From Pseudomonadota bacterium (GTDB taxonomy: Bacteria > BMS3Abin14): DNA of 5,670 bases. Shown piece after piece: positions 74 to 5,373 of the stretch. Each line of letters starts with the position of its first letter. Within the stretch, counting starts at the first letter, position 1. The position numbers were made by a program, and so were the translations under genes. Below the pieces are notes generated by a model. That model did not search any database, had not been told where the DNA came from, and was given only the letters and a program-made list of their open reading frames with translations. Where the stretch lies: assembly GCA_030636965.1 (NCBI GenBank), contig DAOVVW010000087.1:1-5670 (forward strand), given 5' to 3'.

Positions 74-387
74 TCAAGGTTCGACACTATTGTGGATGCG
101 TATCTGCGCTCTTAAGGATTCCACTGAAGGAACTGGTCTGAGTCTCCCGGACTCATCCTCAAAAACCCGTCATGAAAGCCATCCTCTATCCCGGGCATAA
201 CCTCAATATTTTTGAAAAAAATCGCGGGAGAACCTCTCAGGCCAAGGGATGCGGCTTTTCTTTCGTCAAGACGCACTATGGACACGTCAGCTTTCGTGTT
301 CTCAAGTTTCAGTGCTGCATTGATATTTTTCAGGAGCTCTTTTTCCGTGAGGCAGGATTCGGAAAGGTAACAGTCAATTTTCAGCAT
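74..387 (-). CDS. Thioredoxin-fold protein of a mer-like operon, putative selenoprotein with a one-base frameshift
   Basis: The uninterrupted frame starts with ATG at 387 and gives 71 sensible residues: a beta strand with Cys6 and Cys12 (CYLSESC), then LGLRGSPAIFF (about 48-58), which resembles the cis-proline segment of thioredoxin folds. After GF at residues 70-71 the frame turns unconvincing (HDGFLRMSPG...) and stops at 112-114. The next frame reads on cleanly from TGA at 170-172: RVFEDESGRL, RPVPSVESLRAQ, ending at TGA 74-76. Restoring one T in the TTT run at 175-177 joins the halves as GFS-TGA-RVF, a 104-aa protein with the TGA at codon 73. From memory, related mer-linked thioredoxin-like proteins carry GFSCR here, so the TGA would replace a Cys. 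A perfect hairpin follows at 139-155. The start lies 10 nt after the merP stop, suggesting translational coupling. Seen: both halves, the TGA and the hairpin. Inferred: selenocysteine, and that the missing base is a sequencing error or recent mutation. The alternative is a decayed gene. Confidence 0.7.
139..155 (-). promoter_or_regulatory. SECIS-like hairpin after the thioredoxin-gene UGA
   Basis: On the minus strand the stem TGAGTC pairs perfectly with GACTCA around the loop CGGGA. The loop starts 21 nt after the UGA. Bacterial SECIS elements are short stem-loops just downstream of the UGA with a G near the start of the apical loop, usually about 16 to 37 nt away, and this fits. It also lies inside coding sequence, as bacterial SECIS elements do. 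Its recognition by SelB is inferred. Confidence 0.55.
170..172 (-). other. Candidate selenocysteine UGA codon in the thioredoxin-like gene
   Basis: The TGA lies in the same frame as the conserved-looking C-terminal tail (RVFEDESG...) and follows TCA once one T is restored, giving GFS-U-R. A normal stop would leave 31 downstream codons of protein-like sequence unexplained. Confidence 0.55.
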
Positions 388-397
388 CAGCTCAGGG

Positions 398-742
398 CTA
401 TTCCGGCTTGAAGGAAGAGGGGTCCTGATGGAAAGGTTCTCTGCTTATGATTTTTCCGGTAAAGCTGCCGGCCCTGCCCACTGCTTCTTCAAGCGCAGGA
501 TCAGCAGCAGAACCATCTGCAATAATCCAGGCACGATCCTGTTTGTATGATACTACCGCTTTAACTACACCTTCGGTCCCTTCCAGGGACCTTCTCACCG
601 CCGCTGAGCAGAGCGCTCACGTCATTCCCTCGACCTCGAGGACAATCTTGACCAGGCCTTCATCAGCACATGGTGCAACTTGGGGAAATGCTGTTATGAA
701 TGCTACAAGGATAACTACGATCAGAGATATGTATTTTGACAT
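398..742 (-). CDS. merP: MerP-like periplasmic metal-binding protein, putative selenoprotein
   Basis: Read through the TGA at 617-619, this is a 114-aa exported HMA-fold metallochaperone. ATG at 742 has an AGGAG ribosome site (748-752) with 5-nt spacing. Residues 1-26 form a signal peptide (hydrophobic 6-19, cleavage probably after APCA). The first HMA strand KIVLEVEGMT (32-41) leads to the metal loop U42-A-L-C45, normally CxxC; then helix AAVRRSLEGTEGV, strand KAVVSYKQDRAWI and helix DPALEEAVGRAG follow in typical HMA order. Typical MerP is about 91 aa, so this copy carries a short C-terminal tail. In mercury resistance MerP binds Hg(II) through the paired cysteines and passes it to MerT. 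It lies 41 nt after merT and 10 nt before the thioredoxin-like gene. A caller that stops at TGA would report only a fragment from the GTG at 598. A nonsense-mutated pseudogene is the alternative, but all flanking motifs are intact. Confidence 0.85.
575..591 (-). promoter_or_regulatory. SECIS-like hairpin after the merP UGA
   Basis: Minus-strand GGTCCC pairs perfectly with GGGACC around the loop TGGAA. The loop begins 32 nt after the UGA and its G residues are at 33 and 34 nt, near the far end of the usual bacterial SECIS range. Stem length, loop length and loop pattern (NGGNA) match the hairpin after the second UGA of this operon. The coding constraint gives no obvious reason for a perfect palindrome here. 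Confidence 0.6.
617..619 (-). other. Candidate selenocysteine UGA codon 42 of merP
   Basis: The codon sits at the first Cys of the HMA signature GMTCxxC (GMT-TGA-GCG-CTC-TGC). The frame is open from ATG 742 to TAG 398-400 apart from this codon, with family-like sequence on both sides. TGA at a catalytic or metal-binding Cys is the classic mark of selenocysteine. No selenocysteine machinery is in the window, so decoding is inferred. Confidence 0.78.
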
Positions 743-783
743 ATATTCTCCTGCTTTGGTTAAGAGGTTATTGCGGCGCGATC

Positions 784-1119
784 CTAGCCGTAAAACAGCA
801 GGGCTATTTTGTTGAAGGAGGCCGCAATCAAAAACACGATCGTTCCTGTCCAGAAGACTGTTCTCGAGATTCTCCGGGCTCTTATGTCCGCGTTACAGGA
901 ACACCTTTCGGGCTTCACATAAAGCTTCCAGAACGAAAATGAAAGCATGAGGAAGGCGGCGGCCAGCAGATAGGGCCTGAATGGGTCGAAGAAAGTAAAG
1001 TTTCCCAAAAAGCCCACGGAAACCCCGGAAACGAGGAACAACAGTGGCCCCACGCAGCATATAGATGCCAGCACGGATGCCGCCACAGTTCCCATGCTTG
1101 TTATGTTCTCGGATTTCAT
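784..1119 (-). CDS. merT: MerT-like inner-membrane mercuric/metal ion transport protein
   Basis: This 111-aa protein matches MerT in length (usually about 116 aa) and plan. Three hydrophobic segments lie at about 10-38, 50-66 and 86-108. The first holds the vicinal pair Cys21-Cys22 followed by VGP, the MerT signature for taking Hg(II) from MerP within the membrane. The loop between helices 2 and 3 carries a second pair as CSC (Cys73, Cys75), matching the cytoplasmic-side cysteine pair that passes the metal inward. ATG at 1119 is preceded by a modest GCAGG ribosome site, and a TTGACA-type promoter lies just upstream (1142-1169). It is the first gene of a unit with merP and a thioredoxin-like protein. 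No UGA replaces any of its cysteines. Without merA nearby, the substrate could be another soft metal; Hg is the family default. Confidence 0.85.
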   Translation of the reverse strand: MKSENITSMGTVAASVLASICCVGPLLFLVSGVSVGFLGNFTFFDPFRPYLLAAAFLMLSFSFWKLYVKPERCSCNADIRARRISRTVFWTGTIVFLIAASFNKIALLFYG

Positions 1120-2967: not shown

Positions 2968-3552
2968 ATGAAGCGTCTACTATTAAAGGTTCCAAGTGCT
3001 CTAGCAAGTGCAATGTTGATCGTCATGCTTGCAGTTGTATTCACCGTCCCTCTAACCGGCCTCTCTCACGCCGCTACTGCCAGGGAACTGGAGATAAGTG
3101 TGGACGTAGCCCTGGAGAAGTTTTACGAGGAAGTAACGGGCGGCAAAGAATTCATCAGCGAGTCAAAAGGTTACCTCCTCTTTCCCAGGGTGATCAAGGC
3201 TGGCCTGGGAATAGGTGGTGAACATGGTGAGGGCGCCCTCAGGGTTGGAGGAAGAACTGTTGATTACTACAGCACCACTGCCGGATCAGTGGGATTTCAG
3301 CTTGGTGTACAACAGAAAACTGTACTCGTTGTCTTCATGACAAATAATTCTCTGAAGAAATTCCGCAATAGCTCGGGCTGGAAAGCAGGGATTGACGGTT
3401 CAGTAGCCCTGATCAAGGTGGGGGCAGGAGGGTCCGTCGATACCGCAAACATCAAGGCTCCCATTGTCGGGTTTGTCTACGGTCAGAAGGGACTGATGTA
3501 CAACCTTACCCTGGAGGGGTCGAAGTTTACAAAGCTGAAAAAGGAAAAATAA
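2968..3552 (+). CDS. Exported SYLF/YSC84-domain lipid-binding family protein
   Basis: This 194-aa protein has a signal peptide (basic MKRLLLK, hydrophobic about 11-30, cleavage near SHA-AT at 35) and a SYLF (YSC84, formerly DUF500) domain over about 65-190. Family marks include the start of the domain at ESKGYLLFPRVIKAGLGIGGEHGEGAL (65-91), GGRTVDYYSTTAGSVGFQLG (94-113), VVFMTN (121-126) and the glycine-rich GIDGSVALIKVGAGGS region (141-156). Eukaryotic SYLF proteins bind phosphoinositides and actin; the exported bacterial versions are poorly characterised and probably act in the periplasm or at the outer membrane. No lipobox Cys follows the signal. ATG 2968 has a strong GGAGGG site (2954-2959) with 8-nt spacing. 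It is the only plus-strand gene, divergent from one unknown gene and convergent with msrA. Lys-rich C-terminus KLKKEK. Confidence 0.9.
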   Translation: MKRLLLKVPSALASAMLIVMLAVVFTVPLTGLSHAATARELEISVDVALEKFYEEVTGGKEFISESKGYLLFPRVIKAGLGIGGEHGEGALRVGGRTVDYYSTTAGSVGFQLGVQQKTVLVVFMTNNSLKKFRNSSGWKAGIDGSVALIKVGAGGSVDTANIKAPIVGFVYGQKGLMYNLTLEGSKFTKLKKEK

Positions 3553-3622: not shown

Positions 3623-4216
3623 CTACTCTTTGCTCCAGATCCTGTTCAGGTAATTGTCGCGGCCAGAGCCAAGCCGGTAGAATTTGTATCTGATCGGATT
3701 TTTCCGGTAATAGTTCTGATGGTACTCCTCAGCTTCATAAAAAATTGTAGCCGATACTATCTCTGTCAGGATGGGGCTGTTGTATCTTCCTGACTTGTCC
3801 AGCCTGTCTCTGGACTCTTCGGCCAGGCGCTTTTGTTCCTCGTTATGGTAGAAGATGGCCGGCCTGTACTGGCTTCCCACATCCACGAACTGCCTGTCCG
3901 GTGTGGTAGGATTTATGTTTCTCCAGAAGACGTCCAGTAGCTTATCGTAGGTGATCTTTGCGGTGTCGTATACAACGAGAACAGATTCTGTGTGACCCGT
4001 TGTTCCGGCAGACACCTCCTTATAAGTGGGATTTTCCTTATGACCGCCGGTATATCCCACCGTCGTGGATATAACACCATCGAGTTCGTCAAAGGGGTGC
4101 TCCATACACCAGAAACAGCCACCCGCAAACGTCGCCTTCTCAAGTTTCCGAGCGTCGGCCATATTCACTATCCCCAGAGTAATTCCAAACACCAGAAAAA
4201 AAGTTAAAGTTCGCAT
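3623..4216 (-). CDS. msrA: Exported peptide-methionine (S)-S-oxide reductase MsrA
   Basis: MsrA reduces the S form of methionine sulfoxide in proteins (EC 1.8.4.11). Numbered from ATG 4216 (197 aa), a signal peptide covers about 1-22 (hydrophobic FFLVFGITLGIV, cleavage near ADA), placing the enzyme outside the cytoplasm. The catalytic motif AGGCFWCMEHPF holds Cys34, the nucleophile, with Cys37 beside it. Other family motifs are VGYTGG, HTESVLVVYD, FWRNINPTTPDRQFVDVGSQYRPAIF and EEYHQNYY. No Cys is found after Cys37, so the usual C-terminal resolving cysteines are absent; recycling would need Cys37 or an outside thiol. Length is normal for the family plus a signal. I prefer ATG 4216 because AGGA (4224-4227) is 7 nt upstream; the ATG at 4222 is only 1 nt from it. 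It lies about 40 nt after the 153-aa unknown gene, so is probably co-transcribed. Confidence 0.93.
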   Translation of the reverse strand: MRTLTFFLVFGITLGIVNMADARKLEKATFAGGCFWCMEHPFDELDGVISTTVGYTGGHKENPTYKEVSAGTTGHTESVLVVYDTAKITYDKLLDVFWRNINPTTPDRQFVDVGSQYRPAIFYHNEEQKRLAEESRDRLDKSGRYNSPILTEIVSATIFYEAEEYHQNYYRKNPIRYKFYRLGSGRDNYLNRIWSKE

Positions 4217-4255
4217 AGTCATATCCTAACCACGTATTTCCGAAAATCCACACTC

Positions 4256-4717
4256 TCATGGGCCAAATGTAAGCCCGGCGGCGCTTTCCTCCTCGACATC
4301 GTAAAGTTCAATTTCCAGTTCCTTTACCGACACTTCAATAGAATAACAGGTACTCCCTGAGAGCTCCTCAGCAGACCCGATATATACAGCCCCCTTTTCA
4401 ATTTTCATACCGAAGAGCACTGTAGCCCACGCAGGATCGCCGGGCTTTTCAAACCTGTTTTCTATAGCGCACCCGGTCACGTGATAAATAACGAGCTCAC
4501 ATCGCGATCGTTTGCCATCGGAGTTGTATTTGTGATCCCTTATAATGCCCCTGCCAGTTTCAAGCTCCAAGCGATCCAGGGGAACCACAACCAACTCCTT
4601 GTCCTTTTCATACACAACTTCATCTATCCTGATCCTCGCCTTGTTCGTCAGGATCTCCAGCTCCCTGAAGAGATTCTTTGTAAAATGTTCTCCCTTAAAC
4701 TCAATGCGGACATACAT
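4256..4717 (-). CDS. Soluble 153-aa protein of unknown function
   Basis: I do not recognise this protein. No signal peptide or membrane helix is visible. It starts MYVRIEFKGEHFTKNLFRELEILTN, giving a strand then a helix, and goes on as alternating hydrophobic and charged strands (ELVVVPLDRLELE, CELVIYHVTGCAIEN, SIEVSVKELEIELYDVEEE), suggesting a mostly beta cytoplasmic fold. Its three Cys (73, 83, 124) show no metal-binding spacing. The frame is open upstream to ATG 4783, which would overlap the methyltransferase gene, but GGGGAG (4724-4729) with 6-nt spacing points clearly to ATG 4717. The gap to the upstream gene is 38 nt and to msrA about 40 nt, so it is probably in the same transcript. 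Confidence 0.78.
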   Translation of the reverse strand: MYVRIEFKGEHFTKNLFRELEILTNKARIRIDEVVYEKDKELVVVPLDRLELETGRGIIRDHKYNSDGKRSRCELVIYHVTGCAIENRFEKPGDPAWATVLFGMKIEKGAVYIGSAEELSGSTCYSIEVSVKELEIELYDVEEESAAGLTFGP

Positions 4718-4723
4718 AATAAT

Positions 4724-4729
4724 CTCCCC
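4724..4729 (-). promoter_or_regulatory. Ribosome binding site that sets the start of the 153-aa gene
   Basis: GGGGAG on the minus strand, 6 nt before ATG 4717. It favours this start over the longer frame from 4783. Confidence 0.65.
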
Positions 4730-4755
4730 TTGTCTGGGCTGAGGTTTTCGTGAAA

Positions 4756-5373
4756 CTACCCGTTTAATCTCGACCTTACCCATTTGGCCGGCAGGAACAT
4801 GGATACCTTTTTCTGATACTCCTTATATTCGTCACCAAATTCGAGTGCCAGCTTTCTCTCCTCCAATACTGTACCAATCAATATGTATGCTGTCAGGACG
4901 ACATTCACAACCAGGGTAGCAAGGTCCAGATTCCGGGCGGCCCAGATGATAAAGATCCCACCAGTGTACCAGGGATGTCGGACAACACCCAGTATGCCCG
5001 TTGTGTCAATACCGCCTGCTTCGGTAAGGCCCTTACGTGACTCTTTTTCCCTTATCTGACGTATACCAATGAACTGGAGGCCATCGTAATGCTTGGCCCC
5101 AGCGTAAAAAAGACCTATGGATGCGATCACAAGAAGCATCCGAAGCGCAACCAGGGAGCCATTCCAGGAAAATACTTCCGGACTCTGCACAGAATTGGAG
5201 AATATGAGGATGGGTAACAGTGTGACAACTGAAACGATCACGTATATCAGCCTGTAAAAGCGATACGAATCCCCCAGTCGCCCCTTAAGACATTCTGTAA
5301 CAGAAACCGAGATCATCGCGCTGTGCAGGAAGCACCAGGCCGTCCACAGGAGGGCTAAGATAAAAATGTCCAT
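4756..5373 (-). CDS. ICMT/NnrU-like integral membrane methyltransferase family protein
   Basis: This 205-aa protein has about five hydrophobic segments (2-20, 41-59, 75-95, 136-146, 152-170) and the C-terminal signature of the isoprenylcysteine carboxyl methyltransferase / phospholipid methyltransferase superfamily: GVVRHPWYTGGI (129-140) and EERKLALEFGDEYKEYQKKVSMFLP (171-195). In this superfamily the RHP and E-E-R elements form the S-adenosylmethionine pocket. The N-terminal half looks like the NnrU and methanethiol S-methyltransferase (MddA)-type group, so a small thiol is one possible substrate. The window cannot tell which, and prenyl-protein substrates are unlikely in bacteria. It follows the five-Cys small gene by 46 nt and precedes the unknown 153-aa gene by 38 nt. 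The ribosome site is weak. Confidence 0.82.
   Translation of the reverse strand: MDIFILALLWTAWCFLHSAMISVSVTECLKGRLGDSYRFYRLIYVIVSVVTLLPILIFSNSVQSPEVFSWNGSLVALRMLLVIASIGLFYAGAKHYDGLQFIGIRQIREKESRKGLTEAGGIDTTGILGVVRHPWYTGGIFIIWAARNLDLATLVVNVVLTAYILIGTVLEERKLALEFGDEYKEYQKKVSMFLPAKWVRSRLNG

Follow-up and report, generated by a model that had tools for sequence, protein, structure and literature searches.

The locus considered here raises the question of whether a TGA codon, standing where a mercury-transport gene should encode its first metal-binding cysteine, is a stop or is read as an amino acid. The window, i.e., the whole stretch of DNA that was analysed (5,670 nucleotides), is the entire contig C25 of a 1.5 Mb assembly that comprises 311 contigs and is 78% complete. 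The gene, designated merP(U), lies on the minus strand at 398..742 and runs from an ATG start codon (742-740) through an in-frame TGA at codon 42 (619-617) to a TAG stop codon (400-398), giving a MerP-like HMA protein of 114 amino acids when read through. These positions of the gene and of its TGA are as given in the original prediction, which had left the strand unstated. The plus-strand reading of 398-742 was rejected, as it contains three in-frame TGA codons and has no protein-like product. The ribosome site that had been claimed corresponds to a ribosome-binding-like AGGAG before the start codon (748..752, minus strand), read by eye from the sequence. The claimed signal peptide stands as a hydrophobic N-terminal stretch, its prediction being by eye only.

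The metal motif of the read-through product is GMTUALC (UxxC), in which the in-frame UGA is the single internal stop and aligns with the first Cys of GMTCxxC in Cys homologs. With the TGA read through, the product matches the Pfam HMA family (PF00403) with 39.1 bits, above the gathering cut-off of 24.8, which confirms the earlier claim of a complete MerP/HMA protein interrupted solely by a TGA at its first metal ligand (617..619, minus strand). Under the standard code, the longest remnant of the gene is a 66-amino-acid ORF that begins past the TGA at GTG 598 (398..598, minus strand). This piece is what ordinary gene calling leaves, so the gene is indeed missed by standard annotation as had been predicted, and mercury genes of the merP(U) type are likely under-counted.

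We regard it as very probable that merP(U) encodes a MerP-like protein in which the TGA is decoded as selenocysteine (Sec), and in which the predicted mercury site would be a selenolate-thiolate pair, U42-x-x-C45. Judged from sequence, Sec decoding is well supported, though not proved, owing to the conservation of the TGA, a downstream hairpin with compensatory changes, purifying selection past the TGA, and the presence of a tRNA-Sec. That this pair captures Hg(II) is what we infer from the neighbouring genes and from chemistry. The affinity of selenolates for Hg(II) exceeds that of thiolates.

On its upstream side, merP(U) is adjoined by merT (784..1119, minus strand), which encodes a mercuric transport membrane protein of 111 amino acids (PF02411, 70.4 bits; cut-off 32.9). 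This MerT retains the ordinary Cys21-Cys22 and shares 48% identity with the MerT of a related genome, G005. Ten bases after merP(U) is a gene for a small thioredoxin-like protein of 91 amino acids (112..387, minus strand) that has weak matches only: 20.7 bits to the NCBIfam DF (seleno)protein family NF049942 (cut-off 70), and 24.3 bits over 36 residues to the thioredoxin-like protein in the mer cluster of a second relative, G010. The contig ends 111 bases past this gene, and neither merA nor merR is found on it. Nor did the host assembly (78% complete) yield a close merA; the best two matches, which are 30-31% identical, were rejected as merA and taken as other flavoprotein disulfide reductases. 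Full mer clusters are present in G005 and G010, both in the order merR, thioredoxin-like gene, merT, merP(U), merA, from which the window differs in having the thioredoxin-like gene after merP. The G010 MerA passes its model cut-off (496.1 bits; cut-off 454.45), while the best model for the G010 regulator is MerR (TIGR02051) at 133.5 bits, short of the cut-off of 150.85. Another genome, G008, carries a close merA (85%) without a merP(U) match. The rest of the contig is ordinary (2968-3552, 3623-4222 and 4256-5373), and its other genes include those for a SYLF-domain lipoprotein (NF049970, over cut-off), a methionine sulfoxide reductase A with a normal Cys, a protein with a weak DUF2948 match, and an NnrU-like membrane protein. 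A promoter and terminator scan of positions 1-1400 gave two promoter-like sites against 1.7 expected and no terminators, and was given no weight. Scanning the genome contigs with the Cys form of the query returned five loci, all of them Cys HMA domains of ATPase-like proteins.

The best NCBIfam match of the merP(U) product is UxxU_metal_bind (NF041115), at 57 bits against a cut-off of 95, and its UxxC motif differs from the two-Sec UxxU feature of that family. We call the protein MerP-like because it scores 31.8 bits with the MerP model TIGR02052, below the cut-off of 92.55; CopZ models reach up to 45.6 bits. For the G010 protein the order is reversed, with 64.9 bits for TIGR02052, still below 92.55, and 60.4 bits and below for the CopZ models. 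The fused MerT_CopZ_Se family (NF045683, cut-off 375) gives 31 bits for the window MerP and 62 for MerT, which are encoded by separate genes. An AlphaFold model, computed with Cys substituted for Sec, has a pLDDT of about 90 over the domain and a mean of 79.5. The predicted fold matches HMA and MerP structures (ferredoxin-like), and a Foldseek search with the model placed the copper domain 3dxs first, MerP 1osd second, and MerP 1afi eleventh. The protein would thus share its HMA fold, as well as its merT neighbour, with classical Cys MerP (1afi, 1osd), which in contrast has Cys at both ligands. By sequence, the best solved relatives are copper ATPase domains, and the sequence scores do not single out mercury as the metal.

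In another reading, Sec is inserted but serves in a redox role, as a selenenylsulfide thiol-disulfide carrier, or binds Cu(I) or another soft metal, with the link to mercury being incidental. Copper chaperones, too, use HMA sites of this type, the CopZ models outscore the MerP model for the window protein, and a copper domain heads the Foldseek matches. A thioredoxin-like gene lies alongside merP(U), and the 2008 survey discussed below describes most Sec sites of known function as redox sites (PMC2398784). This reading nevertheless seems rather unlikely to us, as the gene is adjoined by merT in the window and, in two relatives, accompanied by merT, merA and a regulator of the MerR type, the MerP model leads for the G010 protein, and the HMA fold is a metal-carrier fold.

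The Sec decoding on which a selenolate-thiolate site depends was followed through two genome surveys, one of 98 genomes, for which the window protein was the query, and one of 386, queried with six aligned U-bearing proteins. The latter gave matches at E <= 1e-16 in 38 of the 386 genomes, at 44 places, ten of which contain a TGA; with a U-bearing query and a strict cut-off, these counts are uninformative on the true share of Sec forms. At nine of the ten, found in eight genomes, the TGA is at the first metal-binding position, so that the window TGA is conserved at eight further places. The UxxC form accounts for six of the nine (the window, G005, G010, G327, and a pair of adjoining lipoprotein-like genes in G050), and the UxxU form for the other three (G059, G373 and G084). 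The tenth, in G217, was rejected after a pattern search found no TGA at its motif. The window's phylum is represented in the set by 12 genomes of one family, and the UxxC gene is found in three of them (G000, G005 and G010). No TGA match came from G001, a 71% complete genome of the same genus.

The G005 and G010 proteins are 45-46% identical to that of the window and have their TGA at exactly the same codon, which at such identity makes chance or sequencing error unlikely. Between G005 and G010, dN is 0.050 and dS 0.321 over the 64 codons past the TGA, and dN is 0.277 and dS 0.867 over the 41 codons ahead of it. Codons on both sides of the TGA are kept as protein, with purifying selection after it in this pair. 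Instead of the random codon or the decaying gene that the original prediction had named as contrary outcomes, relatives have this codon as TGA in G005, in G010 and in another five genomes, and in the G005/G010 pair the reading frame is under purifying selection past it.

The original prediction had pointed to the bases after the TGA as the place for a bacterial SECIS element, and a SECIS-like hairpin (GGUCCCU-GGA-AGGGACC) is found there at 591-575 (575..591, minus strand). It has a stem of 7 bp, an energy of -10.7 kcal/mol, and a loop of 3 nt beginning with G, with 32 nt between TGA and loop. It agrees at every point with the published rule (PMC13188914, Fig. 2 legend), which requires a 3-9 nt loop with G in its first two positions, a 4-16 bp stem, a spacing of 16-37 nt, and an energy no higher than -7.5 kcal/mol. 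An Rfam scan of the window (E up to 1) gave one chance match below cut-off and nothing at the hairpin. The SECIS geometry is present at all nine U places, and the bare hairpin passes the full rule at five of them; the energy limit of -7.5 is missed by G005 and G010 (both -6.9), G327 (-6.4) and the second G050 gene, G050b (-3.9 kcal/mol). As a yardstick, we considered SelD of six relatives, where the four with a typical SelD site have hairpins of -4.5 to -4.6, one has no site, and one has no typical site.

Compared with random synonymous recoding, the per-locus fractions range from 0.0005 to 0.1065 (window, 0.0295), with a combined p of 7.5e-7 over seven loci, G010 and G050b being omitted as near copies, and of 3.5e-7 over all nine. 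An energy of -6 kcal/mol is reached at eight of the nine U places and at 4 of 35 Cys controls (Fisher p 2.3e-5), where 40 control loci had been given and 35 sites were scored. One Cys control, the HMA domain of a Bacillota ATPase (L012, 3001-3186), has a hairpin of -13.4 kcal/mol at the same 32-nt spacing, stronger than that of the window, which may be left over from an earlier Sec site or else be due to chance. Five sequences have the hairpin at spacing 32 (the window, G005, G010, G059 and G373). Across these, 97.5% of pair cells are standard, compared with 32.5-57.5% in slid controls, and three of the eight pairs are changed on both sides. Among 500 shuffles, 49 reach three such pairs and none reaches the paired share. 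The hairpins of G005 and G010 differ by one base, in the loop. When 63 nt are folded freely, the hairpin appears for the window, while G005 prefers a different pairing.

The host genome encodes a tRNA-Sec (74.1 bits, anticodon TCA). Of the four sel genes that had been proposed as a check, the tRNA was recovered; searches of the 78% complete assembly for selA, selB and selD found none of the three. A tRNA-Sec scores over cut-off in 11 of the 12 phylum genomes, and SelD in six, in each of which its gene carries a single in-frame TGA. Among the family genomes tested, which did not include G010, selA is present in seven of nine and selB in six of ten; in the sister genome G001, selB lies in two pieces on the contig that carries selA. 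As the lineage uses Sec, the gaps in the host are most simply explained by missing contigs, although this is unproved.

These gaps count in favour of a true stop, under which merP would be a pseudogene in decay, or the TGA a mistake of assembly, and the 66-amino-acid ORF from GTG 598 noise. When 5.8 billion proteins were searched with the read-through product, two clusters were returned, P0003 and P0004, and it is the piece past the TGA that the databases contain. We consider a true stop very unlikely, given that the same TGA recurs in seven other genomes, that the codons past it are under purifying selection in G005 and G010, and that the hairpin covaries. The database clusters themselves can be read in the same way: each is 66 amino acids long and starts at the residue of GTG 598, yet their sequences differ from that of the window, as would be expected if a stop also sits just before that start there. 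It is hardly credible that the UGA is read as tryptophan or another residue through an altered code or a suppressor tRNA. One database protein, P0013, a relative of the G050 lipoproteins, does have Trp at this position (GMTWGAC), perhaps merely from a gene caller using code 4. Against this, the standard code reads the other window genes with no TGA inside them, the ligand would be lost with a Trp, and a tRNA-Sec and a SECIS-like hairpin are present.

With Sec as the preferred reading of the TGA, SelB would read the hairpin and insert Sec at residue 42, and the product would be exported to the periplasm. There, the U42 selenolate and C45 thiolate would capture Hg(II) and hand it to Cys21-Cys22 of MerT for uptake, after which the mercury would be reduced by MerA, whose gene is adjacent in two relatives. 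The affinity of mercury for selenium is usually discussed as a cause of its toxicity; merP(U) appears to be a case in which a mercury-handling protein exploits that affinity on purpose. We are evenly divided on the wider reading, in which the role of selenium is that of a metal ligand and not of a redox centre, and the mer clusters of a little-sampled phylum hold a dedicated selenolate-thiolate Hg(II) trap that belongs to a larger set of Sec-bearing HMA carriers (UxxC, UxxU, perhaps UxxT) spread over several lineages and truncated by standard annotation. According to a 2026 review, Sec may act as a metal ligand in some selenoproteins, which needs to be studied (PMC13188914), and merP(U) offers a clean test.

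A Sec-bearing MerP is itself already known. Table 2 of the 2008 Global Ocean Sampling marine survey lists a MerP selenoprotein with two sequences from one sample and no Cys homologs (PMC2398784), which bears out the earlier belief that Mer transport selenoproteins had been noted in such a survey; the table gives neither motif nor gene context. The UxxU protein (NF041115), catalogued as 'putative mercuric reductase' (PMC13188914, PMC9312934), shares the HMA domain and Sec at the first ligand, but has two Sec there instead of one; the UxxU protein of G059 passes this model (108.5 bits; cut-off 95). The same catalogue lists a putative mercuric transport selenoprotein with a C/SxxU motif (PF02411; PMC13188914). 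This protein and NF045683 also have Sec in a Mer-type transporter, as MerT or a MerT-HMA fusion, whereas the window has merT and merP as two genes and a MerT that retains its Cys. A cation-transporting ATPase E1-E2 selenoprotein (PMC13188914, PMC9312934) is likewise listed with a predicted Sec in a UxxC of a metal transporter, although it is a large membrane ATPase, in contrast to the small carrier of the window, which stands alone. Neither MerP nor PF00403 appears as a term in the available part of the text of the 2026 catalogue (PMC13188914). A literature search by title or abstract, with most subscription journals outside it, found no paper on a UxxC MerP in a mer operon. The single-Sec stand-alone form in a mer cluster was thus not found described within these sources, of which the 2008 table leaves the motif of its MerP unstated.

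Several other loci were observed in the surveys. In the window's phylum, G002 (L083, plus strand) encodes an exported HMA-like protein with TGA at the ligand position (GVVUGST), a possible UxxT form in which Thr replaces the second Cys; given its composition, the hairpin there is unremarkable (fraction 0.18). TGA codons abound in a mer-like cluster from another lineage (L127, G084:C46:12400-16287, minus strand; also L103), which encodes two UxxC proteins, one of them glutaredoxin-like, and a UxxU HMA protein, with SECIS-like hairpins of -7.7 to -8.9. Its MerT-like protein has two TGA in tandem where MerT has Cys-Cys, and no hairpin passes the test there. The two neighbouring lipoprotein-like HMA genes of G050 (L049, plus strand, 1848-2231 and 2323-2691) have TGA at the first ligand (UxxC), and the G327 gene (L099) is a third of this kind. 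In G059 (L050, minus strand, 479-1066, 1963-2283 and 2602-2835), the UxxU HMA protein is found near a TlpA-like protein with WUPYC and a glutaredoxin-like UxxC protein.
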